From Bradymonadales bacterium (GTDB lineage Bacteria; Myxococcota; Bradymonadia; REDH01), in the NCBI GenBank assembly GCA_947483645.1, contig CANKLS010000018.1:1-23909 (forward strand): DNA of 23,909 bases, read 5' to 3'. The notes beneath the pieces are model-generated. The model saw nothing but the letters and a program-made list of their open reading frames with translations, made no database searches and was not told where the DNA came from. The stretch's first letter is position 1, and each line of letters starts with the position of its first letter. The translations under genes were made by a program, and so were the position numbers. This document shows, piece after piece, positions 8,851 through 19,371 of this stretch.

Positions 8851-9966
8851 TCAGTCGTCGGAGGGGTCGAAGAGGTCTTTGAGCTTGTCAAAGAAGGAGG
8901 GGCGTGAACTCTGCTTTTGGCCGCTTGCTTCGCGGAGTTCTTCGATGATGCGTCGCTGCTCTAAGGAGAGCGACTTGGGGACCTCGAGCTTGAAGTGGAT
9001 GTGGAGGTCGCCACGGTCCTTGCGGTTGACGATCGGGATGCCCTTGCCGGCAAGGCGCTTGCGGTCGCCCGGCTGCGTTCCTGCCTTGACCTCGACCGTT
9101 GTCGTACCGTCGAGGGTGGGGATGTCGACGGAGCCACCGAGCGCAGCGGTGGAGAAGTCGATGGGGAGTTCGAGGTGGATATCCGCACCATCTCGCTCGA
9201 AGACGTCGTGGGCCTGGACCTCGAAGATGACGAAGAGGTCGCCGCTCGGGCCGCCCTTGGAGCCGGCTGCACCCTCGCCGCGGAGCCGGAGTCGCTGACC
9301 TGTGTCGATGCCGGCGGGGATCTTCACCTTGACGACCCGCTCCACCTTGGTGGTGCCGCGGCCGCCGCAGGGCTTGCAGGGGTTGGAGATGATGGTGCCG
9401 CGGCCCTTGCAGCGGGGGCAGGTGGACTGGACGGTAAAGAAGCCCTGGCTGTGGCGGACCTGTCCGGAGCCTGCGCAGCTGGAGCAGGGCGCGGGCCGGC
9501 TGCCGGCCTCTGCGCCGGAGCCACTGCAGGTAGAGCAGGCCTCGTCGCGTGCCACCTTGACCTCTTTGTCGGCGCCATGGACAGCTACATCGAAGGGAAG
9601 GCGCATGCCGAGCTCGAGGTCAGCGCCACGCTGCGGTGCATTGGGGTCGCGACGCTGGCCGCCGAACTGGAAGAACTCGGAGAAGATGTCGCCGAAGTTC
9701 GAGAAGACGTCCTCAGATGAGTACCCTTGGCCGCCATTGCCGAGCCCGGCTTCGCCGAAGCGGTCGTAACGGGCCCGCTTCTCTGTATCGGAGAGGATGC
9801 CGTAGGCCTCAGCCGCGAGCTTGAACTTGTCCTCGGCCGCCTTGTCGCCCGGGTTGCGATCAGGATGGTACTTGAGCGCCTGAGCGCGGTAGGCCTTCTT
9901 GATCTCGTCCGCTGAGGCATCCTTGGCCAGGCCGAGGACATCGTAGAGGTTTGCCTTTTCGCTCAT
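8851..9966 (-). CDS. dnaJ: Chaperone DnaJ
   Basis: The product has 371 residues, the usual length for type I DnaJ. It has a J domain (residues 5-70) with the HPD motif in [10 protein letters not shown], a Gly/Phe-rich region ([16 protein letters not shown]), and four zinc-binding repeats ([32 protein letters not shown]). The C-terminal substrate-binding domains follow ([19 protein letters not shown]). It stimulates the DnaK ATPase and delivers unfolded protein in the cytoplasm. It is not beside dnaK, which lies 7.5 kb away on the other strand, but is divergent from the rpoH-type gene. Its promoter element is shared with the fmdB-dnaK unit. The tail [19 protein letters not shown] is also typical of such proteins. 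Confidence 0.97.
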
Positions 9967-9984: not shown

Positions 9985-10029
9985 GTTGCGCGAGCGCGCT
10001 GCGGTAGGCACCGGGCGGGGGATGTCAAA
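9985..10029 (-). promoter_or_regulatory. dnaJ promoter with a composite element shared with fmdB-dnaK
   Basis: Read on the minus strand: TTTGACA (10029-10023), 11 bases, GTGCCTACC (10011-10003), then G and CAGCGC, two bases and TCGCG. Treated as a promoter, -35 is TTGACA, the spacer is 16 bases and -10 is TACCGC (10006-10001). Transcription would begin about 28 bases before the dnaJ ATG. The same pattern at the same spacing occurs at 17101-17141. Confidence 0.7.
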
Positions 10030-10153: not shown

Positions 10154-10236
10154 AGCAAGCCCTCGCACGCGGTCGACCTCGCCAGCCCTTCTCGGGGCGG
10201 GCGGCACTGACATCGGGCATCGTGTTGGAGGAAGCC

Positions 10237-11163
10237 ATGTTAATGCGCAGCGAGCAAGTGATGAAGGTTTCGGCATCGGCAACCACGGCGGGTCGCGAAG
10301 ACAGCGGCGTCCCGATGGATGCGGTGGGTCGGTATCTCTACGAGATCCGGCGGCATGTTCCGCTGACGGTCGAGGAGGAGGGGGTGCTAACGCGCCACTT
10401 CCGAGAGACTGGTTCGAAGGTCGCGGAGTCGCGGCTCGTGAATGCAAACCTGAGGCTGGTAGTGAAGATTGCGCGTGAGTACCCGACGGGTCGGACCTCG
10501 CTGCTCGACATCATCCAAGAGGGGAACGTGGGGCTGCTGCATGGCATTCGGAAGTTCGACCCTGAGCGGAACATCCGGCTTTCCAGCTACGCGCAGTGGT
10601 GGATCCGCGCCTACATCCTCAAGTACCTGATGGATAACCACAAACTGGTTAAGGTGGGCACCACGCAGGCGCAGCGGAAGCTCTTCTATAACCTACGCCG
10701 GGAGAAGGACCGGCTGCAGCAGCAGGGGCTGGTTCCCACGGCTTCGATGCTTGCGCGGGCGCTGGGCGTCAAAGAGGTCGAGGTGCGGGAGATGGAGGTG
10801 CGGCTTTCGGGCCGCGAGGCCTCCATCGACGCACCGATCGAGGACGGCGAGCGGGGGTCGCTCGGCGACATCATCCCGAGCGGCGAGGAGGCTGTGGATG
10901 AGCAGGTGGCATCGCGGGAGTCAGAGTCTCAGATGCTCGGGCAGTTTGCCTCGTTTTCGGCGCAGCTCTCGGGTCGCGATCTGGAGATCTGGCGGTGCCG
11001 CCTGGTTGCCGAAGAGCCCGAGACGCTTCAGTCGCTGGGCGACCGGTTCAAGGTGAGCCGAGAGCGGGCGAGGCAGCTCGAGGCGCGGATTGTGGCGAAG
11101 CTGGCGACCTTCTTGGGAGTGCCGAATTCGGCTGCTACCGCTCTGGTGCGGTCTGGCGCGTGA
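10237..11163 (+). CDS. rpoH: RpoH-type (sigma-32 family) heat-shock sigma factor
   Basis: The start is set at ATG 10237, behind a strong GGAGGAA (10227-10233); the frame open to 10078 upstream is leader sequence. The product has 308 residues. Region 2 carries NANLRLVVKIAREY, LLDIIQEGNVGLLHGIRKFD and SSYAQWWIRAYILKYL, matching the core-binding and -10 recognition segments. The VKVGTTQAQRKLFYNLRREK block corresponds to the RpoH box (QRKLFFNLR in E. coli RpoH). Region 4 ends with TLQSLGDRFKVSRERARQLE, the -35-recognising helix-turn-helix. The protein would direct RNA polymerase to heat-shock promoters. It lies divergent from dnaJ. A non-RpoH alternative sigma factor of the same group is possible, but the RpoH box makes this the best call. 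Confidence 0.88.
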   Translation: MLMRSEQVMKVSASATTAGREDSGVPMDAVGRYLYEIRRHVPLTVEEEGVLTRHFRETGSKVAESRLVNANLRLVVKIAREYPTGRTSLLDIIQEGNVGLLHGIRKFDPERNIRLSSYAQWWIRAYILKYLMDNHKLVKVGTTQAQRKLFYNLRREKDRLQQQGLVPTASMLARALGVKEVEVREMEVRLSGREASIDAPIEDGERGSLGDIIPSGEEAVDEQVASRESESQMLGQFASFSAQLSGRDLEIWRCRLVAEEPETLQSLGDRFKVSRERARQLEARIVAKLATFLGVPNSAATALVRSGA

Positions 11164-17100: not shown

Positions 17101-17141
17101 TTTGACAGGCCGTTGCCTGTGCCTACCTCAGCGCCTTCGCG
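17101..17141 (+). promoter_or_regulatory. fmdB-dnaK promoter, the second copy of the dnaJ-type element
   Basis: TTTGACA (17101-17107), 11 bases, GTGCCTACC (17119-17127), T, CAGCGC, two bases, TCGCG (17137-17141). As a promoter: -35 TTGACA, 16-base spacer, -10 TACCTC (17124-17129). The start would be about 33 bases upstream of the FmdB-like ATG. Confidence 0.7.
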
Positions 17142-17168: not shown

Positions 17169-17429
17169 ATGCCCCTCTACGAATACCGATGTGAGCGTTG
17201 TTCGAACGAGTTTGAAGTGCTCGTTCGCCGCAGTGACACGGCGATTTGCTGCCCGTCCTGCGGCGGTGATGAGGCGTCGAAGAAGGTGAGCCGGAGCTCG
17301 TTCCACCTCAAGGGTACGGGCTGGTATGCGTCGGAGTATGCGTCGGCGAGCGCTGCATCGGCGGAGAGTGCGAGTGCAGCAGCGACAGAATCGGTGGGCG
17401 GCTGCGGCTGCGCGAGCGAGACGAAGTAG
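17169..17429 (+). CDS. FmdB-family zinc ribbon protein
   Basis: The product has 86 residues, starting at ATG 17169 behind GGGAAG. The N-terminus [19 protein letters not shown] is diagnostic of the FmdB/CxxC_CxxC_SSSS putative regulatory family. It has a zinc knuckle pair C8/C11 and C28/C31 (CPSCGG), then the usual [15 protein letters not shown] segment. The C-terminal part is a low-complexity Ala/Ser/Glu tail (about 58-76) ending in CGCASETK. The family is widespread but without a defined molecular role. Here it shares its promoter with dnaK, which starts 59 bases after its stop, so it is probably induced with the chaperone. Confidence 0.9.
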
Positions 17430-17487: not shown

Positions 17488-19371
17488 ATGGCAAAGATCA
17501 TCGGCATTGACCTCGGAACGACGAACTCGGTTGTCTGCGTGATGGAGGGCGATGAGCCCGTCGTGATCGCGAACCAGGAGGGCGCCCGTACGACGCCATC
17601 GGTGGTGTCGTTTGACGCCAACGGCGAGGCGGTTGCGGGTCAGGTTGCGAAGCGGCAGTCGATCACGAACACGGAGGGCACGATTTTCTCGGCCAAGCGG
17701 TTCATTGGTCGGAAGTTCAGCGAGTGTCAGAACGAGGTGAAGCGGATGCCCTACTCGGTCCGCGAGGCGAAGAATGGGGACTGCGAGTTTGAGATCCGTG
17801 GTCGGCGCTACGCTCCGCCGGAGATCAGCGCGAAGGTGCTGATGAAGCTGAAGGCGGCTGCGGAGGCCTACCTGGGCGAGACGGTGACGGAGGCGGTCAT
17901 TACGGTGCCGGCCTACTTCAACGACAGCCAGCGTCAGGCGACCCGCGACGCGGGCCGCATCGCCGGCCTGGATGTGAAGCGCATCATCAACGAGCCGACG
18001 GCTGCGGCACTGGCCTACGGCCTGGACAAGAAGAAGGAGGAGACCATCGCGGTCTACGACTTCGGCGGCGGTACCTTCGACGTGTCGATTCTGGAGGTTG
18101 GTGACGGCGTGGTCGAGGTGAAGTCGACGAACGGCGACACGACGCTTGGCGGCGACGACGTTGACCACCGGCTGATGGACTGGCTCATCGAGGAGTTCAA
18201 GCGGGAGTGCGGCATGGATGTCTCGAAGGACAAGATGGTCCTTCAGCGGCTCAAGGATGCGGCGGAGAAGGCGAAGATTGAGCTTTCTTCGGTGACGGAG
18301 ACGGAGATCAATCTGCCCTACCTGACGGCAGACGCGACGGGTCCGAAGCACCTTGTGAAGACGCTGTCGCGGGCGAAGCTCGAGCAGCTCATCGATGACA
18401 TCATCGAGCGGACGATGGAGCCCTGCCGGAAGGCGATGGCGGATGCGGGCCTGAAGGCTTCGGACATTCACCAGGTTGTTCTTGTCGGCGGCTCGACGCG
18501 TATCCCGAAGGTGAAGCAGCGGGTGACCGAGTTCTTCGGCCGCGAGCCGCACCAGCGTGTGAACCCGGACGAGGTTGTGGCGCTGGGCGCTGCGGTTCAG
18601 GCCGGCGTTCTGTCGGGCGACGTGAAGGACCTCCTTCTGCTCGATGTGACGCCGCTGTCGCTTGGCATCGAGACGCTTGGCGGCGTGACGACGGTGCTCA
18701 TCCCGCGCAACACGACCATCCCGACAAAGCGTTCGGAGACCTTCTCGACCGCCTCGGACAGCCAGAGCTCGGTGACGGTGCATGTCACGCAGGGCGAGCG
18801 GAAGATGGCGAACGACAACAAGTCGCTCGGCAAGTTCAACCTCGATGGCATCCCCTCCGCGCCTCGCGGCGTGCCGCAGATTGAGGTCACCTTCGACATC
18901 GATGCCAACGGCATCGTTCACGTGTCGGCGAAGGACAAGGCGACCGGCACCGAGAAGCAGATTCGCATTGAGTCGTCGTCGGGCATCTCCGAGGCCGACA
19001 TCCAGCGGATGGTGCGCGAGGCGGAGCAGAACAAGGAGGAGGACGAGCGCAAGCAGGAGCTTGTGAACCTCCGTAACGAGGTGGACTCGATGTCGTGGAG
19101 CGCGAAGAAGCTCATCGATGAGAACCGTGAGAAGCTCGACGCGGCGCTTGTCGCGCGCGTGGAGGAGGCCCTTGCCGAGGCCAAGACGGCGCTGGAGTCG
19201 GGCAGCAAGGAGACGCTCGAGGCGGCGAAGTCGAAGTTGGAGAAGGCCTCTCACGACCTTGCGCAGAAGATGTATGAGGCTGCCTCGTCCGAGCAGGGCG
19301 GCGGCGGTGCGAATGGTGGCGGTGGCGCCGATGGCGACGTCATCGACGCGGAGTTCGAAGACAAGAAGTAG
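17488..19371 (+). CDS. dnaK: Chaperone DnaK (Hsp70)
   Basis: The start is ATG 17488, behind AAGGAG (17475-17480). The product has 627 residues, near the usual length of about 630-640. The nucleotide-binding domain has [49 protein letters not shown] and [13 protein letters not shown]. The linker [19 protein letters not shown] leads to the peptide-binding domain ([15 protein letters not shown]), then the helical lid. It ends in a Gly/Ala-rich tail with [13 protein letters not shown]. It folds and holds client proteins using ATP with DnaJ and GrpE. No grpE is in the window. It is the second gene after the fmdB promoter. A large open frame on the opposite strand (17308-19467) is a codon-bias shadow. 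Confidence 0.98.

Follow-up and report, generated by a model that had tools for sequence, protein, structure and literature searches.

Sigma-32 promoters of Escherichia coli, of which dnaKp1 is an example, combine CTTGAA at -35 with the -10 element CCCCATNT (PMC10216364), and the C-rich extended -10 is described as gammaproteobacterial and said not to be general (PMC6687850). According to the promoter description in the latter source, Ehrlichia chaffeensis sigma-32 promoters have TTGTAT and TATATN without a C-rich stretch. The consensus sequences quoted for Sinorhizobium are CTTGAA-N15-16-CCTATAT for RpoH1 and CTTGCC-N15-16-CCTATCT for RpoH2 (quoted in PMC4843759), and the sigma-32 promoters predicted for metal-reducing deltaproteobacteria follow CTTGAAA-N11/16-CCCCAT (PMC545781). 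An RpoH promoter consensus for Myxococcota was given by none of the literature matches listed. The element described here, which stands before dnaJ and fmdB-dnaK of a Bradymonadales bacterium, resembles each of these systems in part. With the E. coli promoters, as represented by dnaKp1, it shares YTTGA, A-11, the spacing and the class of genes, but it has T-12 instead of C, C-30 and mostly A-29, and GTG at -17 to -15, with G-15 in place of the C-rich extended -10 (PMC10216364). The CCTA core of the -10 and the presence of two RpoH paralogues with related promoters are found in alphaproteobacteria as well, whereas the consensus lines given for that group name no GTG before CCTA (PMC4843759), and the paralogues here are linked to dnaJ and clpB. 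The metal-reducing deltaproteobacteria are alike in the gene classes, but the account of them gives an E. coli-like consensus, variable spacing and CIRCE in most genomes (PMC545781), in contrast with the constant spacing, the GTGYCTA and the failure to find CIRCE in the family (six genomes) in the present case. E. chaffeensis likewise has sigma-32 promoters without the C-rich extended -10, but the description of its promoters includes no fixed GTG (PMC6687850), which is near-invariant here.

Within the window, that is, the whole stretch of 23,909 nucleotides that was analyzed, TTTGACA-N11-GTGCCTACC occurs without mismatch before dnaJ and before fmdB-dnaK (Table 1), and the full 41-base layout TTTGACA-N11-GTGCCTACC-N-CAGCGC-NN-TCGCG also has no mismatch at 10029-9989 (minus) and 17101-17141 (plus). 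The right halves of the two elements are identical at 20 of 23 positions and the 11-base spacers at 4 of 11. The initial annotation, which had reported identically spaced elements with this right-half match and a mostly unrelated spacer, was thus exact. Measured against the 16 fixed bases in the left part of the layout, the best other matches in the window are four sites with five mismatches each. The two elements are very probably RpoH (sigma-32)-type heat-shock promoters that make dnaJ and fmdB-dnaK one regulon. RNA polymerase with an RpoH-type sigma factor would bind YTTGAC (-35) together with GTGYCTA (-17 to -11), and the two units would be transcribed, presumably upon heat induction, as members of one heat-shock regulon, which, judging from sister species, would also hold groES-groEL, the second groEL and clpB. 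The common control of dnaJ and fmdB-dnaK proposed in the initial annotation is well supported by the sequence, and the RpoH-like layout it had pointed out is borne out in the form YTTG-N17-CYTA, which in relatives also precedes groES-groEL, groEL2, clpB, hsp20 and hslV. The window also contains two tandem tRNA genes, at 937-1007 and 1018-1089 (Rfam RF00005).

Table 1. Genes and predicted promoter parts around the dnaJ and fmdB-dnaK units, in window coordinates.
Feature	Position	Strand	Basis or remark
dnaJ	8851..9966	minus	NF008035 455.2 bits and TIGR02349 411.7 bits, both above cut-off
Stretch past the -10 of dnaJ	9989..10002	minus	Resembles that of fmdB; no conserved common element
dnaJ transcription start (predicted)	near 9994		
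dnaJ heat-shock promoter (predicted)	10003..10029	minus	Window sequence and dnaKp1 register
dnaJ promoter, TTTGAC (-35 to -30)	10029-10024	minus	A-29 at 10023
dnaJ promoter, 11-base spacer	10022-10012	minus	
dnaJ promoter, GTG (-17 to -15)	10011-10009	minus	
dnaJ promoter, CCTA (-14 to -11)	10008-10005	minus	CC at 10004-10003
RpoH-type sigma factor gene (clade A)	10237..11163	plus	Divergent from dnaJ; TIGR02392 best, 243.1 bits against a cut-off of 323.1
fmdB-dnaK heat-shock promoter (predicted)	17101..17127	plus	Window sequence and relatives
fmdB-dnaK promoter, TTTGAC	17101-17106	plus	A at 17107
fmdB-dnaK promoter, spacer	17108-17118	plus	
fmdB-dnaK promoter, GTG	17119-17121	plus	
fmdB-dnaK promoter, CCTA	17122-17125	plus	CC at 17126-17127
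Stretch past the -10 of fmdB	17128..17141	plus	Resembles that of dnaJ; no conserved common element
fmdB-dnaK transcription start (predicted)	near 17136		
fmdB	17169..17429	plus	Encodes a zinc ribbon protein and heads the dnaK unit; TIGR02605 65.9 bits, cut-off 31.3
dnaK	17488..19371	plus	NF001413 991.4 bits, above cut-off

When the element is numbered from -35 at its first base, CTA ends with its A at -11, which matches the scaffold of E. coli dnaKp1 in the register given for that promoter (PMC10216364), and both window sites keep its distance from -35 to A-11. Both have TTTGAC, which contains the -35 element YTTGA, and CCTA, which agrees with the alphaproteobacterial-type -10 core CYTA. Information content was profiled over 24 sites, to which the window's genus contributes one site per gene (from the window or from G001) and from which the repeat sites of G002 to G004, secA of G008 and G030, and the reverse transcriptase, CitMHS_2, acetyltransferase and L192 sites were left out; because the set was partly chosen by motif, only the flanks of the profile are free of selection. 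Information is high from -35 to -29 and from -17 to -11, weak at -36 and from -9 to -7, and no higher than 0.2 bits from -6 to +18. G-17, T-16, G-15 and C-13 are invariant or almost invariant, and the C-rich extended -10 is absent, G-15 being present in 24 of 24 sites of this partly motif-chosen set. The new detail is the near-invariant GTG at -17 to -15, which takes the place of the C-rich extended -10 known from E. coli. The consensus T at -10 (CYTAT, CCCCAT) is not found at the window sites, both of which have C, and the 24 sites have C in 9, G in 7, T in 6 and A in 2. In sigma-32 promoters, the T at -10 is a consensus position and is not known to be strictly required. The element is non-palindromic, occurs in a single orientation, and ends 36 (dnaJ), 41 (fmdB), 82 (groES), 62 (groEL2) or 98 (clpB) bases before the start codon. 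The predicted heat-shock promoter is thus of an ordinary kind, but its -10 carries an extension specific to the lineage.

Scans for the motif covered the genomes of relatives, of which G001, with 30% of sampled words in common with the window, is the nearest; G001 to G004 are four genomes of the window's genus, and G005 and G006 represent two other genera of the same family. The scan with up to two mismatches that the initial annotation had proposed as a check gave four sites in G001, all at chaperone genes: fmdB-dnaK (no mismatch), groES-groEL (one), dnaJ (one) and the second groEL (two). Over 38 genomes the same threshold returned 119 sites against 68 in the control (32 against 9 in the family, 87 against 59 in the other 32 genomes). 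At up to three mismatches G001 has 11 sites, which prove nothing alone because the reversed control also has 11; the added sites lie at a reverse transcriptase gene, at clpB and at five places that could not be linked to heat shock. Up to one mismatch to a degenerate consensus gave 41 sites in the family against 20 in the control, and specificity soon fades once mismatches are allowed. The same genes as in G001 are preceded by the motif in the three further genomes of the genus, except that the fmdB-dnaK site was not seen in G004, a draft that is 77% complete, and the other genera of the family add sites before hsp20 (G005) and a second J-domain protein gene (G006). The core TTGAC-N12-GTGYYTA occurs 15 times in G001 to G004, against 2 in the reversed control, and every one of these sites precedes fmdB-dnaK, dnaJ, groES-groEL or the second groEL. 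An extension of the core scan to 12 genomes, including six outside the family that were picked since a site was already known there, gave 47 sites against 13 in the reversed control. Among them 39 precede dnaK or fmdB-dnaK, dnaJ, groES, groEL2, clpB, hsp20 or hslV, and eight lie at other genes (G006 C189, acetyltransferase; G013 C114 and C318; G057 C388; G051 C6, C94 (peroxiredoxin), C296 and C476).

The element recurs in several families of the class with its spacing and orientation kept. The strict form YTTGACA-N11-GTGYCTA, searched with zero mismatches in 57 genomes of the class, gave 34 sites, spread over 16 genomes, against 0 in the control; 29 of them are before chaperone or protease genes, four before secA and one is unassigned, and the strict form is absent in 41 of the 57. 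By family, it is present in 6/6 genomes of f1, 5/13 of f2, 4/8 of f3, 1/5 of f7, 0/1 of f4, 0/21 of f5 and 0/3 of f6. The secA genes concerned belong to four f3 genomes (L193, L194, L195 and L207; identified by Pfam for L193) and have the motif 65 to 82 bases before their start. A wider scan of the phylum (282 genomes, 225 of them outside the class) added 18 strict sites outside the class, against 5 in the control. Among the 14 of these 18 that were examined, six precede heat-shock genes (groES, fmdB-groES-groEL, three times grpE and once lon), a seventh precedes a carD-like gene, and the remaining seven were not linked to heat shock. The requirement for GTG was dropped in a test of the 350 bases upstream of 30 groES loci, out of 52 genomes with a match. 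There, [CT]TTG-N17-C[CT]TA was found in 9 of 30 genomes, against 0.34 expected in first-order random sequence (at most 2 in 200 trials), and was not found in the other 21 upstream regions. All nine sites, namely six of the family that were known beforehand (four from sister species) and three from f3, have GTG at -17 to -15. Outside this comparison with random sequence, a looser form adds six further genomes, five with GTG.

Some sites lie at genes of other kinds. The variant TTTGACA-N11-GCGCCTAAY precedes a reverse transcriptase gene (RVT_1 in Pfam) in two species of the genus (L126 3326 (+), 47 bases before the start; L136, G001:C252:11047-11073); a heat-shock promoter on such a gene would be unexpected, and chance may account for the variant. 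In all four genomes of the genus (L173 to L176), the gene of a CitMHS_2-family transporter has a site CTTGAC-N12-[CG]CGCCTATC 76 or 77 bases upstream, and an identity of this transporter as an antiporter, considered from its sequence, was dropped on the Pfam assignment to CitMHS_2. In G006 (L178, C189) the core motif stands before a GNAT acetyltransferase gene (Pfam) whose product resembles EctA. The CarD-like gene outside the class (L315, G190) and the peroxiredoxin gene (L299, G051:C94) complete these observations.

The likeness of the two window elements extends past the -10, where the initial annotation had suspected the site of an additional regulator. Indeed, beyond the ninth base of the right half the two window elements are identical at 11 of 14 positions, and TCGCG is kept at both dnaJ and fmdB throughout the genus, as would be expected if the 41-base similarity, including CAGCGC-NN-TCGCG, represented a second regulator site common to dnaJ and fmdB-dnaK. 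The stretch varies between sister species, however, for CAGCGC, which both window elements have, is CAGCCC at dnaJ in four relatives and TGTGCG at fmdB in three, and the groES, groEL2 and clpB sites lack the stretch altogether. Because the columns from -6 to +18 carry so little information, the CAGCGC..TCGCG likeness is not part of the element, and a second regulator site is exceedingly improbable. CAGCGC and the C at -10 of the window's dnaJ promoter, where four relatives have T, are shared features peculiar to the window's species. It is highly improbable that the element is an operator for a DNA-binding regulator of chaperone genes and no promoter at all: such an operator might well be long, conserved and specific, as the element is, but there is no palindrome, a single orientation is kept shortly upstream of the start codons (36 to 98 bases), and the two halves maintain the -35/-10 register of sigma-32 promoters as given for dnaKp1 (PMC10216364). 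The known chaperone operator CIRCE, TTAGCACTC-N9-GAGTGCTAA, was found in 0/6 family genomes at up to three mismatches, which also led us to reject HrcA/CIRCE control in the family. CIRCE half sites were found before groES in 7/8 f5 genomes and in 0/22 others, and control of groES therefore seems to depend on the family. Both halves are present before groES in four f5 genomes (L247, L248, L252 and L254), and the number of RpoH hits per genome in f5, a family without any strict motif site, ranges from 0 to 5. A housekeeping (sigma-70) promoter would explain why TTGACA, the sigma-70 -35 element, is exact, and the TA at -12/-11 fits a weak -10, since a 16-base spacer gives the hexamer TACCTC or TACCGC with T-12 and A-11 in common with TATAAT. 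A housekeeping motif should be widespread, however, and the exact sites lie mostly at heat-shock genes; in addition, the near-fixed G-17, T-16, G-15 and C-13 are no requirement of sigma-70, and GTG is also present in the less selected groES set, all of which makes this a very improbable origin. The TG is one base too far upstream for a sigma-70 extended -10.

The preferred reading as RpoH-type promoters calls for a sigma factor of that type. The gene divergent from dnaJ encodes a protein whose best family is TIGR02392, and we name it RpoH-type because its score lies 80 bits below the curated RpoH cut-off, which was exceeded in 0/57 genomes of the class. Its best solved relative is RpoH (8hkc_E), and it has an RpoH box, QRKLFYNLRREK (QRKLFFNLRK in E. 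coli). By hand count on the alignment to the solved relative, it keeps E265, R266 and R268, which are reported as needed at -35 (PMC10216364). Six of six family genomes have two RpoH-type genes, A divergent from dnaJ and B near clpB (directly before it in G001 to G005, about 2 kb away in G006), and sister species suggest that the window's genome also has B. A tree of 56 rows sets A (11 rows, 99/98) apart from B (26 rows, 100/97), with long branches that leave deeper joins unsure. Type A was seen in f1, f4 and f7.

The initial annotation had pointed to the dnaJ-adjacent gene, but this is not the only candidate reader of the promoter, in view of the second paralogue and of families, typed as B only, that use the same promoter. 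It could even be that B alone reads the motif and that A, the 10237 sigma factor, has other targets. All 13 f2 genomes and all eight f3 genomes have a single RpoH hit (E <=1e-50), type B wherever it was typed (13 and 5, respectively), and the two families carry the same promoter before dnaJ, dnaK, groES, hsp20, hslV or secA; moreover, in G007 and G012 the B gene has a core motif roughly 90 to 115 bases upstream of its aligned start. On the other hand, A is divergent from dnaJ in 11 of 11 distinct A loci, nine of which have the core motif between the two genes (G053 and G010 have none), the f2 and f3 assemblies are drafts with a completeness of 67 to 99%, in which an A gene may be missed in single cases, and alphaproteobacterial RpoH paralogues with overlapping regulons are on record (PMC3441632, PMC4843759). 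We regard exclusive reading by B as unlikely, though far from negligible. Reading by B or by both paralogues is likelier than reading by A alone because B co-occurs with the motif in families that yielded no A. In some families the reader is probably B, the divergent arrangement with the core motif between the genes speaks for A in the same circuit, and in the window A, B or both may act on the promoter.

The paralogues differ from gamma- and betaproteobacterial factors at two residues of interest, in a comparison where group A comprises 16 rows, five of which repeat genomes (L012 to L016 = L148 to L152). At H107, which by our own count we take to be the wedge histidine of the E. coli sigma-32 paper, A has W in 15/16 rows, B has Y in 26/26, and the gamma/betaproteobacterial proteins have H in 57/61. 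At the position of K130, which in E. coli contacts the base pair at -15 (PMC10216364), A has Q in 16/16, B has R in 26/26, and the gamma/betaproteobacterial proteins have K in 61/61. These differences might go with G-15 and T-12, a pairing that is no proof of contact because the sets of rows also differ by descent. Tentatively, and with slightly less than even confidence, we propose that GTG at -17 to -15 is a new sigma-32 extended -10, used in several families of the class and thinly elsewhere in the phylum, that it replaced the C-rich element jointly with the change at K130 (Q in A, R in B), and that the dnaJ- and clpB-linked sigma factors share one promoter code. Directly upstream of the rpoH-A ATG, five species have the same base at 35 of 36 positions (window 10201-10236). 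An RNA thermometer was considered there, but despite this identity the folds are no better than those of shuffled sequences (z 0.72, -0.47, 0.21 and 0.23); the conserved bases may instead encode an N-terminal extension of the protein.

The first gene behind the promoter is fmdB in the fmdB-dnaK units of the window's genus and of G040 of f5, and an fmdB-groES-groEL unit stands behind the motif in G271, outside the class (loci L309 and L311 besides the window). fmdB is thus a recurrent first gene of chaperone operons in distant lineages, and its product may take part in the heat-shock response. With sigma residue 130 and promoter base -15 differing jointly, a swap of these two positions would make sigma-32 specificity testable. 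Given that all exact sites in the genus lie at chaperone genes, so specific a code would make part of the heat-shock regulon of uncultured members readable from sequence.
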